Source of the DNA: Rubellimicrobium aerolatum | Lineage (GTDB): Bacteria > Pseudomonadota > Alphaproteobacteria > Rhodobacterales > Rhodobacteraceae | Direction of reading: 5' to 3' | Assembly: GCF_017872975.1 (NCBI RefSeq) | Contig: NZ_JAGGJP010000019.1 | Location: 1 to 51,666 of the forward strand | Length of the DNA: 51,666 nt | Shown: positions 41,154 through 47,622 of the stretch, piece by piece | Layout of the letters: each line of letters starts with the position of its first letter | How positions within the stretch are numbered: the first letter of the stretch is position 1 | Position numbers and translations under genes: made by a program | Notes under the pieces: generated by a model | Told to the model about the DNA's origin: nothing | The model's input: the letters and a program-made list of their open reading frames with translations, nothing else | Databases searched by the model: none

Positions 41154-41591
41154 TCAGGCCACGGCCTCGGGGAGCGCGGCGGGCTGGGCGGCGGGCTGGG
41201 GGGCGGTGTCGATCATCCAGCGGGTGCCCCAGCCATCGGTGAAGGCCCCGAAGCCGGGGGACCAGAAGGTGGGGGCGTAAGGCATCTCGACCGCGCCGCC
41301 GCCGGACAGGGCGTCGAAGAGGCGCCGCCCCTCGGTCGTGTCGGGGGCGGTGAGGCAGATGGAGCTGCCGGCCATGGGCCGCGCCTGCGACCAGTCGGAG
41401 GCGTAGAGCAGGCCGTCGCCGATCCGCACGCAGCCGTGCAGGACATGGTGCGGTTCGCCGCCCATGGATGCGCCGGGCGGGGCGTCGGCCTCGCGCATCA
41501 GCTCGGGCTCGGGGGAGCCGAAGGCGCGGGCGTAGGCGCGGAGCGCCTCCTCGCAGGTGCCGGGGAAGAAGAGGTAGGGGATCGGGGTCAT
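41154..41591 (-). CDS. PhnB/VOC-family protein, paralogue 1
   Basis: A 145-residue protein of the PhnB-like VOC fold. It starts MTPIPYLFFPGTCEEALRAY and contains HHVLHGCVRIGDGLLYASD and the C-terminal FWSPGFGAFTDGWGTRWMID. No enzymatic role is established for this group. ATG at 41591 has GGAGG eight bases upstream. A GTTC-N7-GTTC box with a -10-like GATACT lies about 180 bases upstream and resembles the promoter of the paralogue at 42317-42679, so both may be damage-inducible. Confidence 0.8.
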   Translation of the reverse strand: MTPIPYLFFPGTCEEALRAYARAFGSPEPELMREADAPPGASMGGEPHHVLHGCVRIGDGLLYASDWSQARPMAGSSICLTAPDTTEGRRLFDALSGGGAVEMPYAPTFWSPGFGAFTDGWGTRWMIDTAPQPAAQPAALPEAVA

Positions 41592-41772
41592 GGTCGGTCC
41601 TCCGAGGGTGGGATCGGGCGTCGGGGCGAAAGGCCGGAAAGGTCCCGCCTCGGGCCAAGCGGGAGCGGAGCCCGGCGGTGGTCCCGGGCGAAGGTCGGCC
41701 CGTGCGCGCCGTTCCCCGTGCGCGCCGTTCGTGGGGCGCGGGCGAGTCGGCGGCGTGGGATCCGAGTATCAT

Positions 41773-41787
41773 GTTCCCGTTACGTTC
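41773..41787 (-). promoter_or_regulatory. LexA-type box GTTC-N7-GTTC upstream of PhnB paralogue 1
   Basis: GTTCCCGTTACGTTC (plus strand); on the gene strand it reads GAACGTAACGGGAAC and is followed after two bases by GATACT. It is similar in layout to the box at 42717-42731. The -35 match is weak and the leader would be about 165 bases. Confidence 0.5.
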
Positions 41788-41867
41788 CAAAGTGCCGACT
41801 TGCCCTCACGTCATTTTTCCGCCGATGCGGGGTGAATCGGGCACGGGCGGTCCCTAGATCAGGGAGC

Positions 41868-42062
41868 ATGAACTACGTGCTCGCCCTCCTCCTCCCGCCC
41901 TTGTCGATCCTCCTCGCGGGTCGGCCGATCCTCGCCGTCGTGGTGTTCCTGTTCTGGCTTCCCGCCATCATCTTCTCCGGCGGGCTGGGGCATCCGATCT
42001 TCGTCCTGCTCGCCTGGATCATCATCTGGCAGAAGCAGGCGGATCGGCGCGCCGGGCTCTAA
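41868..42062 (+). CDS. YqaE/Pmp3-like small membrane protein
   Basis: A 64-residue proteolipid. It has two hydrophobic helices (LALLLPPLSILLAGRP and FVLLAWIIIW), with FWLPAIIFSGGLGHPIF between them, and a short basic tail. The L-x-P-P-L-S/A start is the UPF0057 (Pmp3/YqaE) signature; these peptides are stress-induced membrane proteins thought to affect membrane potential. ATG 41868 has GGGAG upstream. It lies between the two PhnB paralogues. Confidence 0.75.
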   Translation: MNYVLALLLPPLSILLAGRPILAVVVFLFWLPAIIFSGGLGHPIFVLLAWIIIWQKQADRRAGL

Positions 42063-42316
42063 GGTGGGTCGGAGCCGGCCGATCCGGGGTCGGGCGCCGA
42101 GGGTGGACGACTGTCCGAAGTGGTCGCCGTCGCGGACGGTCGGCCCGGGACGCGCTTGGGTCCCGGGGCCAGCCTTGGCCGGGAGCCTCGGGTCTCCGGA
42201 GGTCGAGGCGGCGAACGTCGTGGGCACCCGCCAGGGGAGTTCATGGCCGACCTCATCGGCTCGGCCGTCATCGGGTCTCATGGGCTGCCGGGTGGGGGCG
42301 CGGCCACCCCCGTCGA

Positions 42317-42679
42317 TCAGGCGCCGCCGCGCGGGGCGGGCAGGCTGTCCAGCATCCAGCCCGTGCGCCAGCGGTCGGTGAGCCGCGCGAAGCCGGGCGA
42401 CCAGGCGGAGGGCTGGAACGGGGTCTCGATGGCCCCGCCCTCGGCCAGGGCATCGAAGACGCGCCGCCCCTCGGCCGGGCCGCAGAGCGTCACGGCGAGG
42501 GTCGCGCCCGGCGGCGGCGCGTCCCGCGCGGGGTCGGTGATCGTGCGCCAGCCCCTGGGCGTCCGCAGGGCGGCGTAGACGACGGCCCCACTCGGCCGGA
42601 AGATCGCCGCGTAGGCGCGGCGGGCGTCGGAGCGACGGTCGGGGCGGGGGTCCTCAAGCAGGAGGCGGGGAATGGTCAT
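42317..42679 (-). CDS. short PhnB/VOC-like protein, paralogue 2, SOS-type promoter
   Basis: A 120-residue protein whose C-terminal half (GRRVFDALAEGGAIETPFQP then SAWSPGFARLTDRWRTGWML) clearly matches the PhnB-like protein at 41154-41591. The N-terminal half is shorter and lacks the first VOC histidine region, so metal binding is doubtful. ATG 42679 has AAAGGA about seven bases upstream. Its promoter is nearly consensus with a LexA-type box in the spacer, so it is predicted to be tightly damage-regulated. The function is unknown. Confidence 0.7.
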   Translation of the reverse strand: MTIPRLLLEDPRPDRRSDARRAYAAIFRPSGAVVYAALRTPRGWRTITDPARDAPPPGATLAVTLCGPAEGRRVFDALAEGGAIETPFQPSAWSPGFARLTDRWRTGWMLDSLPAPRGGA

Positions 42680-42706
42680 GACCGATTCCTTTCCATGAGG
42701 CGCCCA

Positions 42707-42735
42707 AGTATACGTCGTTCCTGTTTTGTTCTCAA
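42707..42735 (-). promoter_or_regulatory. sigma70 promoter with embedded LexA-type box
   Basis: On the minus strand TTGAGA (42735-42730), a 17-base spacer and TATACT (42712-42707). The spacer and -35 edge contain GAACAAAACAGGAAC, a perfect GAAC-N7-GAAC (42731-42717). The start codon is 28 bases past the -10. Confidence 0.8.
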
Positions 42736-44666: not shown

Positions 44667-46112
44667 TCAGGCCGCCATCAGCCGCTCCAGGTGCTCGCGC
44701 GCGGCGAGGAGGTCCTGGCGGAACCGTTCCGTCTCCATCTCGCGGGCCACCGGGTCGGGGAGGCGGAGGAGGAAGCTCGGGTGCACGGTCAGGAACACCG
44801 GCAGGCCCTCCGGGCCTTCCTCGATGGTGCCCCGCCGCTTGAGGATGCCCTCGCGCGAGCCGGTCAGCGATTCGGCGGCGGTGGCGCCGAGGGCGACGAC
44901 CAGGCGGGGGCGCACCAGCTCGATCTCCTGGCGGAGCCACCAGCGGCAGGCGGCGATCTCGCCGCTGGCGGGGCTGGCGTGGATGCGGCGGCGGCCCTTG
45001 AGCGCGAACTTGAAGTGCTTGACGGCGTTGGTCAGGAACAGCTCGCGCCGGTCGAGCCCCGCCTGGGCGAGGATGTCGTCGAGGAGCTGGCCGGCGGGGC
45101 CGACAAAGGGGCGGCCCTGGAGGTCCTCCTGGTCGCCCGGCTGTTCGCCCACCAGCATGAGCGCGGCGTTCGGCGGCCCCTCGCCGGGGACGACCTGGGT
45201 CGCGTCCGCGTGGAGCGGGCAGCGCGCGCAGGCGGCCTCCTCGGCGTGGAGGGCGGCGAGGCTCCCGGTCTCGGGCAGCAACGCGGGAGCCTTGGGGCGG
45301 GCGGCGATGGCCTTGGCGTAGAAGGGCGCGCGGGTCGGCGCGGCCTCGGCCATGTCGCGGACGCGGGTCTCGGCGTTGGCCAGGAGGTCGGGGATGGCGG
45401 CGGTCTCGGGGAGGTTCTTCCAGTAGCGCTTGGGCATCTCGGCCAGCATCCGCGCTGTCTTGACGCGCGCCGGGTTGAAGATGTGGCGGAAGTAGGTGAG
45501 CCATAGATCCTCGGCCGCGTCCTCGGGCAGGTCGGGCTTCTCGGCTCCGTCCTCGAAGCGCACCGCCCCGTCCTCGCAGTGGAGGATCAGGTCGGGCGTC
45601 GCGATGGAGAAGTCCATGTCGGCGAAGCGGCGGGCGAAGAAGGGGGCGGCGGGCTCCAGCGTGAAATGCGCGGGCTCGAACCAGGCGGCGAAGCGGCGGC
45701 GGGGGGCGGTGCGGTCGCCGATCTCGCGGAAGCGGACGAAGGCCTTGAGCTTGTGCAGGTCGCGGTGGACCGCCCGCTCCATCTGGCGGAGCGCGAGGAG
45801 GTCGCGGTCGGCGGGGTCCCGCATGAGCGTGGGCTCGGTCCGCAGCCGCCAGAGCACGGCGTAGAGGCGGGCGAACCGCTCGGGGTGGGCGTGCCAGCAG
45901 ACCTGGGCGGCGAGGTGGACGAAGCTTTCCGGGACGCGGATCGCGCCGGCCTTGGCGGCGGGGGGCGGCTCGTCCTCGGCCCAGAGGACGGACTCGGCGG
46001 GGCCGCGGCTCCAGGTGATCGCCTCGGGCGGGATGCGCGCGGAGAGGCAGGCGCGCGCGGCCTCGCGCCAGGCCTCGGCGGTGCCGACCTTGGGGAGCGT
46101 CACATGGGGCAT
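44667..46112 (-). CDS. DUF4130-UdgX fusion: uracil-DNA-binding repair protein
   Basis: A 481-residue two-domain protein. Residues about 1-245 form the DUF4130 domain (PESFVHLAAQVCWHAHPERF, MPKRYWKNLPE). Residues about 285-481 form a family 4-like uracil-DNA glycosylase with GEQPGDQED (322-330), cysteines in CARCPL for the Fe-S cluster, and the UdgX R-loop RRRIH with His378. In UdgX this His forms a covalent link to the uracil-site sugar. ATG 46112 (MPHVTLP) is chosen over 46136 because a LexA-type box (46116-46130) would otherwise lie inside the gene. It is downstream of its usual radical SAM partner. Confidence 0.9.
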   Translation of the reverse strand: MPHVTLPKVGTAEAWREAARACLSARIPPEAITWSRGPAESVLWAEDEPPPAAKAGAIRVPESFVHLAAQVCWHAHPERFARLYAVLWRLRTEPTLMRDPADRDLLALRQMERAVHRDLHKLKAFVRFREIGDRTAPRRRFAAWFEPAHFTLEPAAPFFARRFADMDFSIATPDLILHCEDGAVRFEDGAEKPDLPEDAAEDLWLTYFRHIFNPARVKTARMLAEMPKRYWKNLPETAAIPDLLANAETRVRDMAEAAPTRAPFYAKAIAARPKAPALLPETGSLAALHAEEAACARCPLHADATQVVPGEGPPNAALMLVGEQPGDQEDLQGRPFVGPAGQLLDDILAQAGLDRRELFLTNAVKHFKFALKGRRRIHASPASGEIAACRWWLRQEIELVRPRLVVALGATAAESLTGSREGILKRRGTIEEGPEGLPVFLTVHPSFLLRLPDPVAREMETERFRQDLLAAREHLERLMAA

Positions 46113-46115
46113 CAT

Positions 46116-46130
46116 GTTCATGTATTGTTC
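46116..46130 (-). promoter_or_regulatory. LexA-type box at the UdgX gene start
   Basis: GTTCATGTATTGTTC (plus strand), a perfect GTTC-N7-GTTC, ends three bases before the ATG at 46112 and overlaps a -10-like ATACAT; TTGCGA lies 16 bases upstream of that. A leaderless message is implied. Confidence 0.75.
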
Positions 46131-46201
46131 GCGCATCCGAGTCGCAACATGGCGAAAACGCCCCCGAGGGGGAAGGGGTCCCAGGTCGTGGCCGGAACGC
46201 C

Positions 46202-47428
46202 TCAGAACAGCGAAAGCTGCTCGGGCTCGGGAGCGAAGCGGGCGCGAAGGCCCTCGCTGTCGAGGAGCGCGCCGGGGCTCCAGTCGGGCAGGGTGATGAA
46301 GGGGCGGGCCTTGGTCAGCGACGCGCCCATGCGGAGGAGGTCGTCGTAGCGGAGCGTCCGGTGCGGGCGGGCGCGCAGGATGCGGTCCACCGTCTTGGTG
46401 CCGAAGCCCGGGACGCGGAGCAGCATCTCGCGGGGCGCGCGCTGGACCTCCACGGGGAACCGCTCGCGGTGCCGGAGCGCCCAGGCGAGCTTGGGGTCGA
46501 TGGCGAGGTCGAGGTTGCCCTCGCCCGCGATCTCCTCGGGCGCGAAGTCGTAGAAGCGCATGAGCCAGTCGGCCTGGTAGAGCCGATGCTCGCGCAGGAG
46601 CGGCGGCTTCACCAGCGGGAGCTTGGCGCTCGAGTCCGGGATGGGCGAGAAGGCGGAGTAGTAGACGCGCTTGAGCCCGTAGGACCCGTAGAGGCGGGCC
46701 GACTGCTTGAGGATCGTCGCGTCGTCGGTCGGGTCCGCGCCCACGATCATCTGTGTGGACTGGCCGGCGGGGACGAATCGGGGCGCGGGCTTGCCGCTGT
46801 GGGTCCGGTCCTGCGCCGCCTCGCGACGGAGGCGGATGTCGGCCATGTGGCGGCGGATGGTGCCGGGGTCCTTCTCGGGGGCGAAGGTGGCGAGGCCCTG
46901 TTCCGTGGGCAGCTCGATGTTGACCGACAGGCGGTCGGCGTGGCGGCCGGCCTCGGCGATCAGGTCGGGGTCGGCGCCGGGGATAGTCTTGAGGTGGATG
47001 TAGCCGCGGAAGTCGTGCTCCTCGCGCAGCGTCCGCGCGATCCGCACCATGTCGCGCATGGTGTCGTCCGGGCTCCTGATGATGCCGGACGACAGAAACA
47101 GCCCCTCGATGTAGTTGCGGCGGTAGAATTCGAGCGTCAACTCCACCACCTCCTCGGGGGTGAAGCGGGCGCGCTGGACGTTCGACGACACCCGGTTGAC
47201 GCAGTAGGCGCAGTCGAAGACGCAGAAGTTGGTCATCAGGATCTTGAGCAGCGACACGCAGCGGCCGTCCGGCGTGAAGCTGTGGCAGATTCCGTTGCCG
47301 TCGGTCGATCCCAGGCCCTTGCCATCGCGCGAGTCGCGCCGGGATGTTCCCGAGGAGGCGCAGGAGGCGTCGTAGCGGGCCGCGTCCGAGAGGATCGCGA
47401 GCTTGTCATGGAGGCTGAGCGTGGTCAT
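46202..47428 (-). CDS. putative DNA modification/repair radical SAM protein (UDG-linked)
   Basis: A 408-residue radical SAM protein with the cluster motif CVFDCAYC (Cys69, Cys73, Cys76). Extra N-terminal cysteines lie in CASSGTSRRDSRDGKG and GICHSFTPDGRC. A helix-hairpin-helix near the C-terminus (MLLRVPGFGTKTVDRIL) suggests DNA binding. This is the family found next to DUF4130/UdgX fusions, known only as a putative DNA repair or modification protein. ATG 47428 is chosen because a LexA-type box ends three bases upstream, the same geometry as the UdgX gene. About 90 bases separate the two genes. Confidence 0.9.
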   Translation of the reverse strand: MTTLSLHDKLAILSDAARYDASCASSGTSRRDSRDGKGLGSTDGNGICHSFTPDGRCVSLLKILMTNFCVFDCAYCVNRVSSNVQRARFTPEEVVELTLEFYRRNYIEGLFLSSGIIRSPDDTMRDMVRIARTLREEHDFRGYIHLKTIPGADPDLIAEAGRHADRLSVNIELPTEQGLATFAPEKDPGTIRRHMADIRLRREAAQDRTHSGKPAPRFVPAGQSTQMIVGADPTDDATILKQSARLYGSYGLKRVYYSAFSPIPDSSAKLPLVKPPLLREHRLYQADWLMRFYDFAPEEIAGEGNLDLAIDPKLAWALRHRERFPVEVQRAPREMLLRVPGFGTKTVDRILRARPHRTLRYDDLLRMGASLTKARPFITLPDWSPGALLDSEGLRARFAPEPEQLSLF

Positions 47429-47431
47429 GGC

Positions 47432-47446
47432 GTTCAGGTAATGTTC
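47432..47446 (-). promoter_or_regulatory. LexA-type box at the radical SAM gene start
   Basis: GTTCAGGTAATGTTC (plus strand), a perfect GTTC-N7-GTTC, lies three bases before the ATG at 47428. A -10-like TTACCT is within the box and GTTGCC is 17 bases upstream of it. Confidence 0.75.
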
Positions 47447-47622
47447 CGGCCCTCCCGGGGCAACCATGTGCGGCAAGTTGCCTAGGGCCGCGCGGCGGGG
47501 CTATGATGCGGCGCGCGGGCGGGCCTATGGTCCTTCCACGCTCCATCGGGCGTCCGCGCGCGACCGGCCTTCGCGCCGGAGCGGGCGGCTGGCCGGGCGA
47601 GGACGGAGGAGCGGAGGCGCGC

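Follow-up and report, generated by a model that had tools for sequence, protein, structure and literature searches.

The window, by which we mean the whole stretch of 51,666 nucleotides of Rubellimicrobium aerolatum DNA that was analysed, carries two VOC genes on the same strand, denoted V1 and V2, with a small open reading frame (ORF) of the opposite strand between them and a perfect match to the motif GAACN7GAAC ahead of each (Table 1). An earlier reading of this DNA, made from the letters alone and referred to here as the sequence-only reading, had described the two genes as paralogues with a common C-terminal half, both preceded by LexA-type boxes. Both ORFs and both boxes were found where it had put them, and the C-terminal parts of the two proteins share 41.7% identity over 84 amino acids (E 3e-18). 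The UdgX/rSAM_link_UDG gene pair (TIGR03914 and TIGR03916) adjoins the VOC genes and has LexA-type boxes likewise; its proteins are unrelated to the VOC proteins.

Table 1. Coordinates of genes, predicted LexA boxes and promoter elements at the VOC locus, as positions in the window.
Feature	Position	Strand	Basis and remarks
V1, PhnB-type VOC gene	41154..41591	-	ORF, 145 aa
V2, VOC paralogue, shorter and faster-evolving	42317..42679	-	ORF, 120 aa
Small hydrophobic ORF, 64 aa	41868..42062	+	Sequence; divergent from V1
LexA box of V1, GAACGTAACGGGAAC	41773..41787	-	Perfect GAACN7GAAC match
LexA box of V2, GAACAAAACAGGAAC	42717..42731	-	Perfect GAACN7GAAC match
Candidate -10 of V1, GATACT	41765..41770	-	Sequence; 2 bases past the LexA box
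-10 of V2, TATACT	42707..42712	-	Sequence
-35 of V2, TTGAGA	42730..42735	-	Sequence; 17-base spacer; 2-base overlap with the box
LexA box at UdgX gene start	46116..46130	-	Perfect match; neighbouring SOS candidate
LexA box at rSAM_link_UDG gene start	47432..47446	-	Perfect match; neighbouring SOS candidate

The promoter that the same reading proposed for V2 was recovered with one small correction: the box had been placed in the spacer, and the -35 element covers its first two bases, so that the V2 box begins inside that element and takes up most of the 17 bases behind it. The putative operators overlap or abut the predicted promoters, that of V2 lying between and over TTGAGA and TATACT. The GATACT noted behind the V1 box is there as well, preceded by a -35 that is poor compared with that of V2. 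The distance from box to ATG is 181 bp for V1, a long leader, so expression of V1 could be weaker or different in this genome. The suggestion that the flanks of the two boxes look alike holds only to a moderate degree in the window, where 7 of the 20 positions within 10 bp agree, and is clearer in three relatives, with 10-12 of 20.

The motif as a LexA operator

Judging from the genes that it precedes, GAACN7GAAC is the LexA operator of the window organism. One box starts 119 bp ahead of the recA domain match (C1:41769) and another 43 bp ahead of lexA (C4:137004). The genes behind boxes were read in 49 additional fetched site stretches; the proteins above the curated NCBIfam cut-off were those of recN, ruvB, priA and lexA, together with PdeM. 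ParE, UmuC and a PcrA/UvrD helicase were best NCBIfam matches below the cut-off, these proteins being truncated at the stretch ends. Pfam added DUF3072 and ClpP, and the genome motif survey also placed boxes at umuDC. The organism's own imuA gave no match in NCBIfam or Pfam at the thresholds used and is named from sequence only; it resembles ten ImuA-like proteins of the family (E 3e-13 to 0.009). In six of six further Rubellimicrobium genomes, recA again carries the motif. The Caulobacter LexA consensus, (T/A)TGTTC-N6-TGTTC, is the same motif on the opposite strand (PMC13384398, available part), and a GAAC consensus group is reported among the predicted LexA sites of Dinoroseobacter shibae (PMC6473078, available part).

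Perfect matches are over-represented in the window, with five observed against 0.72 expected and at least five in none of 100 shuffles; the excess disappears once a single mismatch is permitted (27, perfect ones included, against 25.3 expected). Four of the five lie within 5,674 bp, for which the Poisson probability of at least four is 4.8e-6 at genome density (70 perfect sites in 3,760,183 bases). The claim of four perfect sites within 6 kb, where about one per window would be expected, is thereby borne out. Reading the pattern backwards gave 41 hits genome-wide against the 70 perfect matches, a ratio by which chance may account for more than half of the latter. The fifth site of the window (36722), weighed as a possible SOS site of a GGDEF/EAL gene, is probably a chance match, since in R. 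roseum the sole box near the GGDEF/EAL gene stands at or behind its 3' end.

The sequence-only reading had proposed that the VOC sites be judged by the genome's own LexA matrix. We built one from nine non-VOC sites (recA, lexA, the site behind lexA, recN, imuA, umuDC, ruvB, UdgX and rSAM) and scored all 70 perfect sites, leaving each training site out of its own matrix. The VOC sites do not fall at the random end of the ranking: by the score of the 15-base core V2 was 2nd, V1 11th, rSAM 12th and recA 13th, and with 8-bp flanks on each side recA was 4th, V1 13th and V2 21st. The order within these ranks should not be pressed, as a matrix of nine sites is small and the lexA box itself has a low core score (6.5).

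The VOC proteins and their possible ligands

V1 is related to the PhnB/YjdN type of VOC protein, to which PF06983 and PA1353 (PDB 1u6l) belong, and resembles it in fold and length. The V1 of the window scored 19.5 bits against PF06983 (Pfam cut-off 24), and the V1 proteins of all eight Rubellimicrobium genomes matched this family at E<=0.01. The cut-off was exceeded by a Roseitranquillus gene and by V3 of R. roseum, V3 being a paralogue found behind V1 in some relatives; the Pfam search gave no PF06983 match for V2 of the window or of R. roseum. The proteins differ from the YjdN type in that neither reached the cut-off of the YjdN equivalog NF007537 (122 bits; V1 60.7, V2 35.7), in the LexA box carried in this genus, and in the shortened form and changed conserved residues of V2.

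A sequence profile search with V1 found PA1353 at E 1.9e-31. An AlphaFold2 (AF2) model of V1 built from 44 sequences reached pLDDT 94.1 and pTM 0.84; an earlier model from 8 sequences only had pLDDT 57, and its Foldseek list was set aside. Foldseek with the later model placed 1u6l on top (TM 0.86 by target length) and other PhnB-type structures next, the first nine rows being chains of the six entries that the V1 sequence profile had also found. As modelled, V1 has a VOC fold most like the solved PhnB-type proteins. Among the best 50 rows were also TioX, MRD (with mitomycin or bleomycin), TnmS, ZbmA and EhpR, at TM 0.50-0.57 of the query, and at an equal level FosX and two lactoylglutathione lyases (4z04 and 3r4q). 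Because these enzymes share the level of the drug binders, a drug-binding function is not specifically supported; what the list shows for the predicted model is a VOC fold, with drug binding not singled out.

Mitomycin, the bleomycins, tiancimycin and zorbamycin are DNA-damaging drugs. The VOC proteins that bind them (MRD for mitomycin, the bleomycin-binding proteins, TnmS for tiancimycin and ZbmA for zorbamycin) have the fold in common with V1 and are not its nearest relatives by sequence. By analogy with them, we tentatively suggest that the Rubellimicrobium VOC protein might bind a DNA-damaging compound.

An alternative of similar, and likewise limited, plausibility is that LexA control is real and that the VOC protein is an enzyme, not a drug binder, which removes an aldehyde or other reactive by-product of DNA or sugar damage, of the methylglyoxal or base-propenal kind. 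The VOC superfamily includes glyoxalases and lyases, the two lactoylglutathione lyases appear in the Foldseek list, and four residues (Y6, D66, D119 and W125) do not vary among 44 homologues, while H52 hardly does. Against it, the usual VOC metal ligands could not be placed in V1, no known function or substrate was found for any PhnB-type relative, and V2 is without Y6, H52, Y63 and F109, all of them conserved in V1.

The same residues bear on whether V2 is a decaying duplicate with a leftover box, V1 alone being functional. V2 has also lost part of its N-terminal half, in which identity among four species is 51%, and it was not found in four of eight genomes. These points are countered by several signs of constraint: Y20, D66, D119 and W125 are retained, the C-terminal half is 71% identical among the same four species, the reading frame is intact in all four, and so is a perfect box. 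By the NG86 method, applied to nine pairs in all, dN/dS was 0.34-0.52 for V2 (four pairs), which is below 1, against 0.15-0.29 for V1 (three pairs) and 0.18-0.19 for V3. We consider decay of V2 rather unlikely.

Conservation and history of genes and boxes

V1 was present, with a perfect box upstream, in eight of eight Rubellimicrobium genomes examined, its proteins in the relatives being 47-82% identical to that of the window. V2 was present in four (the window, R. roseum, R. arenae and R. mesophilum), each time with a perfect box of its own. From box to ATG the distance is 37-46 bp for V1 in the seven relatives and 37-40 bp for V2 in all four genomes; V1 of the window is the one exception among the 12 promoters. 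When these 12 were aligned, both GAAC arms were invariant and six of the seven spacer positions varied, the third (A) being the sole constant one; beyond the box, constancy was limited to the TA in the -10 region and a single T in the -35 region. The predicted operator is thus conserved before the V1 and V2 orthologues of the genus.

Could the LexA sites be real and serve the divergent neighbours instead of, or besides, the VOC genes? In the window each box has divergent genes on its two sides: the distance is 64 bp from the start of the V2 box to the ychF start codon used, and 80 bases from the V1 box to the start of the small ORF, which given that short gap and its divergent placement may possibly be under the V1 box. 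The small ORF is divergent from V1 in five relatives too; the gap to the box is about 270 bp in R. mesophilum and about 60-80 bp in the other four. The tight spacing between box and VOC start in 11 of 12 promoters argues against this explanation, as does the orientation of the V2 -35 and -10 towards V2. Moreover, R. thermophilum and CFH 75288, which have ychF and are without V2, have no box by ychF, the V1 box at a distance of over 300 bp being the only one there, and R. rubrum and MAG15 keep the V1 box with no match to the small ORF in the available DNA. We regard service to the neighbours as improbable, and consider it very likely, from position and conservation, that the VOC genes are under LexA control, whether or not a divergent neighbour is as well. 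That the boxes are chance matches, or were inherited unselected from a common ancestor and are without LexA control, draws on the high backwards count and is barely credible when a same-strand perfect box has a chance of about 0.0005 per 50-bp stretch at genome density and eight V1 genes of such divergence keep both arms around a varying spacer.

The order ychF-VOC-trpA is common to many Rhodobacteraceae, 13 of the compared loci serving as examples. Of 46 named VOC loci of other genera, 45 were testable (the remaining one had just 2 bp of upstream DNA), and none had a perfect box within 300 bp upstream; a one-mismatch site lay within 300 bp at eight of the 45, about the number expected from the one-mismatch density of the window. 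At locus L134 a perfect match lies 20 bp into the VOC gene. Whole-genome searches outside the genus returned a further view of 50 VOC loci (28 + 22, partly the same genes, three of them outside the family, and overlapping with the 45 named loci), again with no perfect box. By comparison, of 12 family genomes outside the genus that bear the VOC gene, 11 had a perfect box at recA (all nine of L182-L190, as well as L162 and L181; L156 is the exception), as did 9 of the 14 non-genus recA loci of the family that were returned irrespective of VOC. As recA is boxed outside the genus and the VOC loci are not, the box at the VOC locus is most likely an acquisition of Rubellimicrobium. The rSAM box, unlike the VOC box in the loci tested, does occur beyond the genus, at two Limimaricola loci.

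The VOC promoters resemble a known one. From the Rubellimicrobium VOC promoters we derived the pattern TTGRGAACN7GAACNTGNTA, which with at most one mismatch was present in 85 of the 295 family genomes, as a rule at a single place in each; read backwards, it was present in 13. The genes behind it in 10 returned loci encode one protein family, each matching that of L196 at E 8e-44 or better, which we take to be ImuA. The pattern is matched perfectly by the V2 promoters of three relatives and with a single mismatch by six of eight V1 promoters; the other two V1 promoters, in CFH 75288 and R. mesophilum, differ from it at two bases, as does that of V2 in the window. On these fits, the VOC promoters appear to be built much like the imuA-like LexA promoter of the Rhodobacteraceae, with which they have the TTGAGAAC-N7-GAACATGNTA arrangement in common. 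The -35 and box of V2 are joined in the same TTGAGAAC, which in six of eight V1 promoters is replaced by TTTGGAAC. What lies downstream differs: the imuA-like promoter drives a translesion cassette, that of Rubellimicrobium a VOC gene.

The history of the genes was examined with an alignment of 44 rows (V2 rows excluded) and a maximum-likelihood tree of 45 proteins, both subsets of 53 loci; near-duplicates, cut or broken rows (e.g. L134, L135 and L148) and others were left out by choice. In this tree, the bootstrap of which had not settled, V1 and V2 of Rubellimicrobium stand together (89/86), V2 forms a clade of its own (100/100), and V3 groups with tandem paralogues of other genera (100/97). 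Five genomes have an intact V3 behind V1. In R. arenae, R. rubrum and R. roseum the two genes overlap or V3 begins no more than 65 bp from V1, which makes a shared V1-V3 transcript likely in these three only; in the other two, R. mesophilum and MAG15, some 570-660 bp intervene.

The small ORF gave no Pfam match. Homologues with 74-97% identity occupy the same place in five relatives. Its Rubellimicrobium position is upstream of V1, in divergent orientation, and in genomes that have V2 it falls between the two VOC genes. The arrangement is convergent in Roseitranquillus, two Loktanella and CCMM004, with the small ORF behind the V1 homologue. One reading of this arrangement would be a tandem duplication of a block of VOC gene and small ORF, followed by losses, with V2 as the copy at the ancestral place. 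The agreement between the V1 and V2 promoter flanks fits a duplication that included the promoter.

Proposed control and its meaning

In the SOS response LexA blocks a promoter until DNA damage, acting through RecA and the cleavage of LexA, releases it, and the regulons under this control consist mostly of repair, mutagenesis and division genes. The course of events that we propose for Rubellimicrobium is the following. An ancestral PhnB-type VOC gene of the Rhodobacteraceae, at the ychF-VOC-trpA locus, would have acquired a LexA box in the Rubellimicrobium lineage. The gene would then have been duplicated within that lineage, probably with its promoter, and V3, an older paralogue, probably came to be carried on the V1 transcript in the three relatives with an overlap or a gap of at most 65 bp. 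In the present-day cell, LexA bound to GAACN7GAAC between and over the promoter elements would block RNA polymerase; after DNA damage, RecA-driven cleavage of LexA would free the V1 and V2 promoters and VOC protein would be made. The product would most likely bind or detoxify a DNA-damaging small molecule, by analogy with the mitomycin, bleomycin and enediyne VOC proteins of related fold. In sum, V1 and V2 probably belong to the LexA (SOS) regulon of Rubellimicrobium through a box gained on an ancestral VOC gene, and may act on a small molecule. The direct basis for this is sequence, position, conservation, synteny and a predicted fold, from which we infer LexA binding, induction by damage and the kind of ligand.

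In the part of the literature covered by our search, no VOC, PhnB or glyoxalase gene is named as LexA-controlled; Erill 2004 and da Rocha 2008 lie outside that scope, and an earlier mention is possible. The phnB that stands beside lexA or SOS in the available text of PMC3224232 and PMC5521831 is the anthranilate synthase PhnB of Pseudomonas, the portions seen of PMC7042692 and PMC3901139 mention glyoxalase in unrelated places, and the accessible passages of PMC9380542 contain none on glyoxalase, bleomycin, VOC or vicinal. There is a partial precedent for placing a glyoxalase-like gene in a damage response: in Corynebacterium glutamicum the putative glyoxalase cg0185, beside a putative methylated-DNA methyltransferase, is co-expressed with DNA repair genes, in a table for the rshA (SigH) mutant that is headed SOS and DNA repair genes and does not itself name LexA (PMC3489674, as far as available).

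Perhaps the broadest suggestion, and a speculative one, is that the VOC family would act as inducible antidotes, in which genotoxic damage switches on a protein that captures or destroys the compound responsible, V2 and V3 serving other ligands or acting as partners of V1. Recruitment to LexA in one genus, at a locus that much of the family has, would offer a natural comparison, with and without the box, of how a regulon gains a gene. The PhnB-type VOC proteins would also gain a physiological setting that can be tested, namely DNA damage.

Putative LexA boxes at the UdgX pair

Within the window, putative LexA boxes, recognized as perfect matches to GAACN7GAAC, lie at the starts of both UdgX and its partner gene rSAM_link_UDG. 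Among the loci compared, the UdgX box was conserved in R. roseum, R. arenae, R. mesophilum, and R. thermophilum, and the rSAM_link_UDG box in R. arenae, R. thermophilum, CFH 75288, and two Limimaricola loci. A search of one open literature library found no paper that mentions both LexA and UdgX.

Further predicted boxes in the genome

Perfect predicted LexA boxes also precede three genes or reading frames on other contigs of the R. aerolatum assembly (see table). Two further box loci of this genome, L087 on contig C13 and L090 on contig C14, are near-identical in box and flanks; a UmuC-type gene is present at one of them, and the other appears to be a duplicate.

Coordinates of the features discussed (L-numbers denote extracted stretches; bare coordinates refer to the window)
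Feature	Location	Remark
DUF3072 protein gene	L081:1306-1524, C10	box immediately upstream
Short ORF	L040:2254-2430, C4	preceded by a second box, which lies behind lexA
PdeM gene, TIGR04123 (ligase-associated DNA damage response endonuclease)	L091:864-1550, C16	box at gene start
UdgX and rSAM_link_UDG	44667-47476	
V1 leader	41592-41772	from box to V1
Small hydrophobic ORF, 64 aa	41868-42062	
V3-type gene, R. thermophilum	L047:3995-4378	

The V1 locus

The leader of V1, the PhnB-type VOC gene, is about 140 bp longer in the window than in seven relatives, and a short GC-rich repeat lies within it. In R. thermophilum, the gene of the V3 type (the older VOC paralogue found behind V1 in relatives) looks frame-shifted, because its tblastn match is split into two pieces in different frames. 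In Rubellimicrobium, the 64-aa ORF, for which a Pfam search returned no match, lies upstream of V1 in divergent orientation, whereas at four loci from other genera it follows V1 in convergent orientation; this difference in placement hints at a block duplication at the V1 locus.
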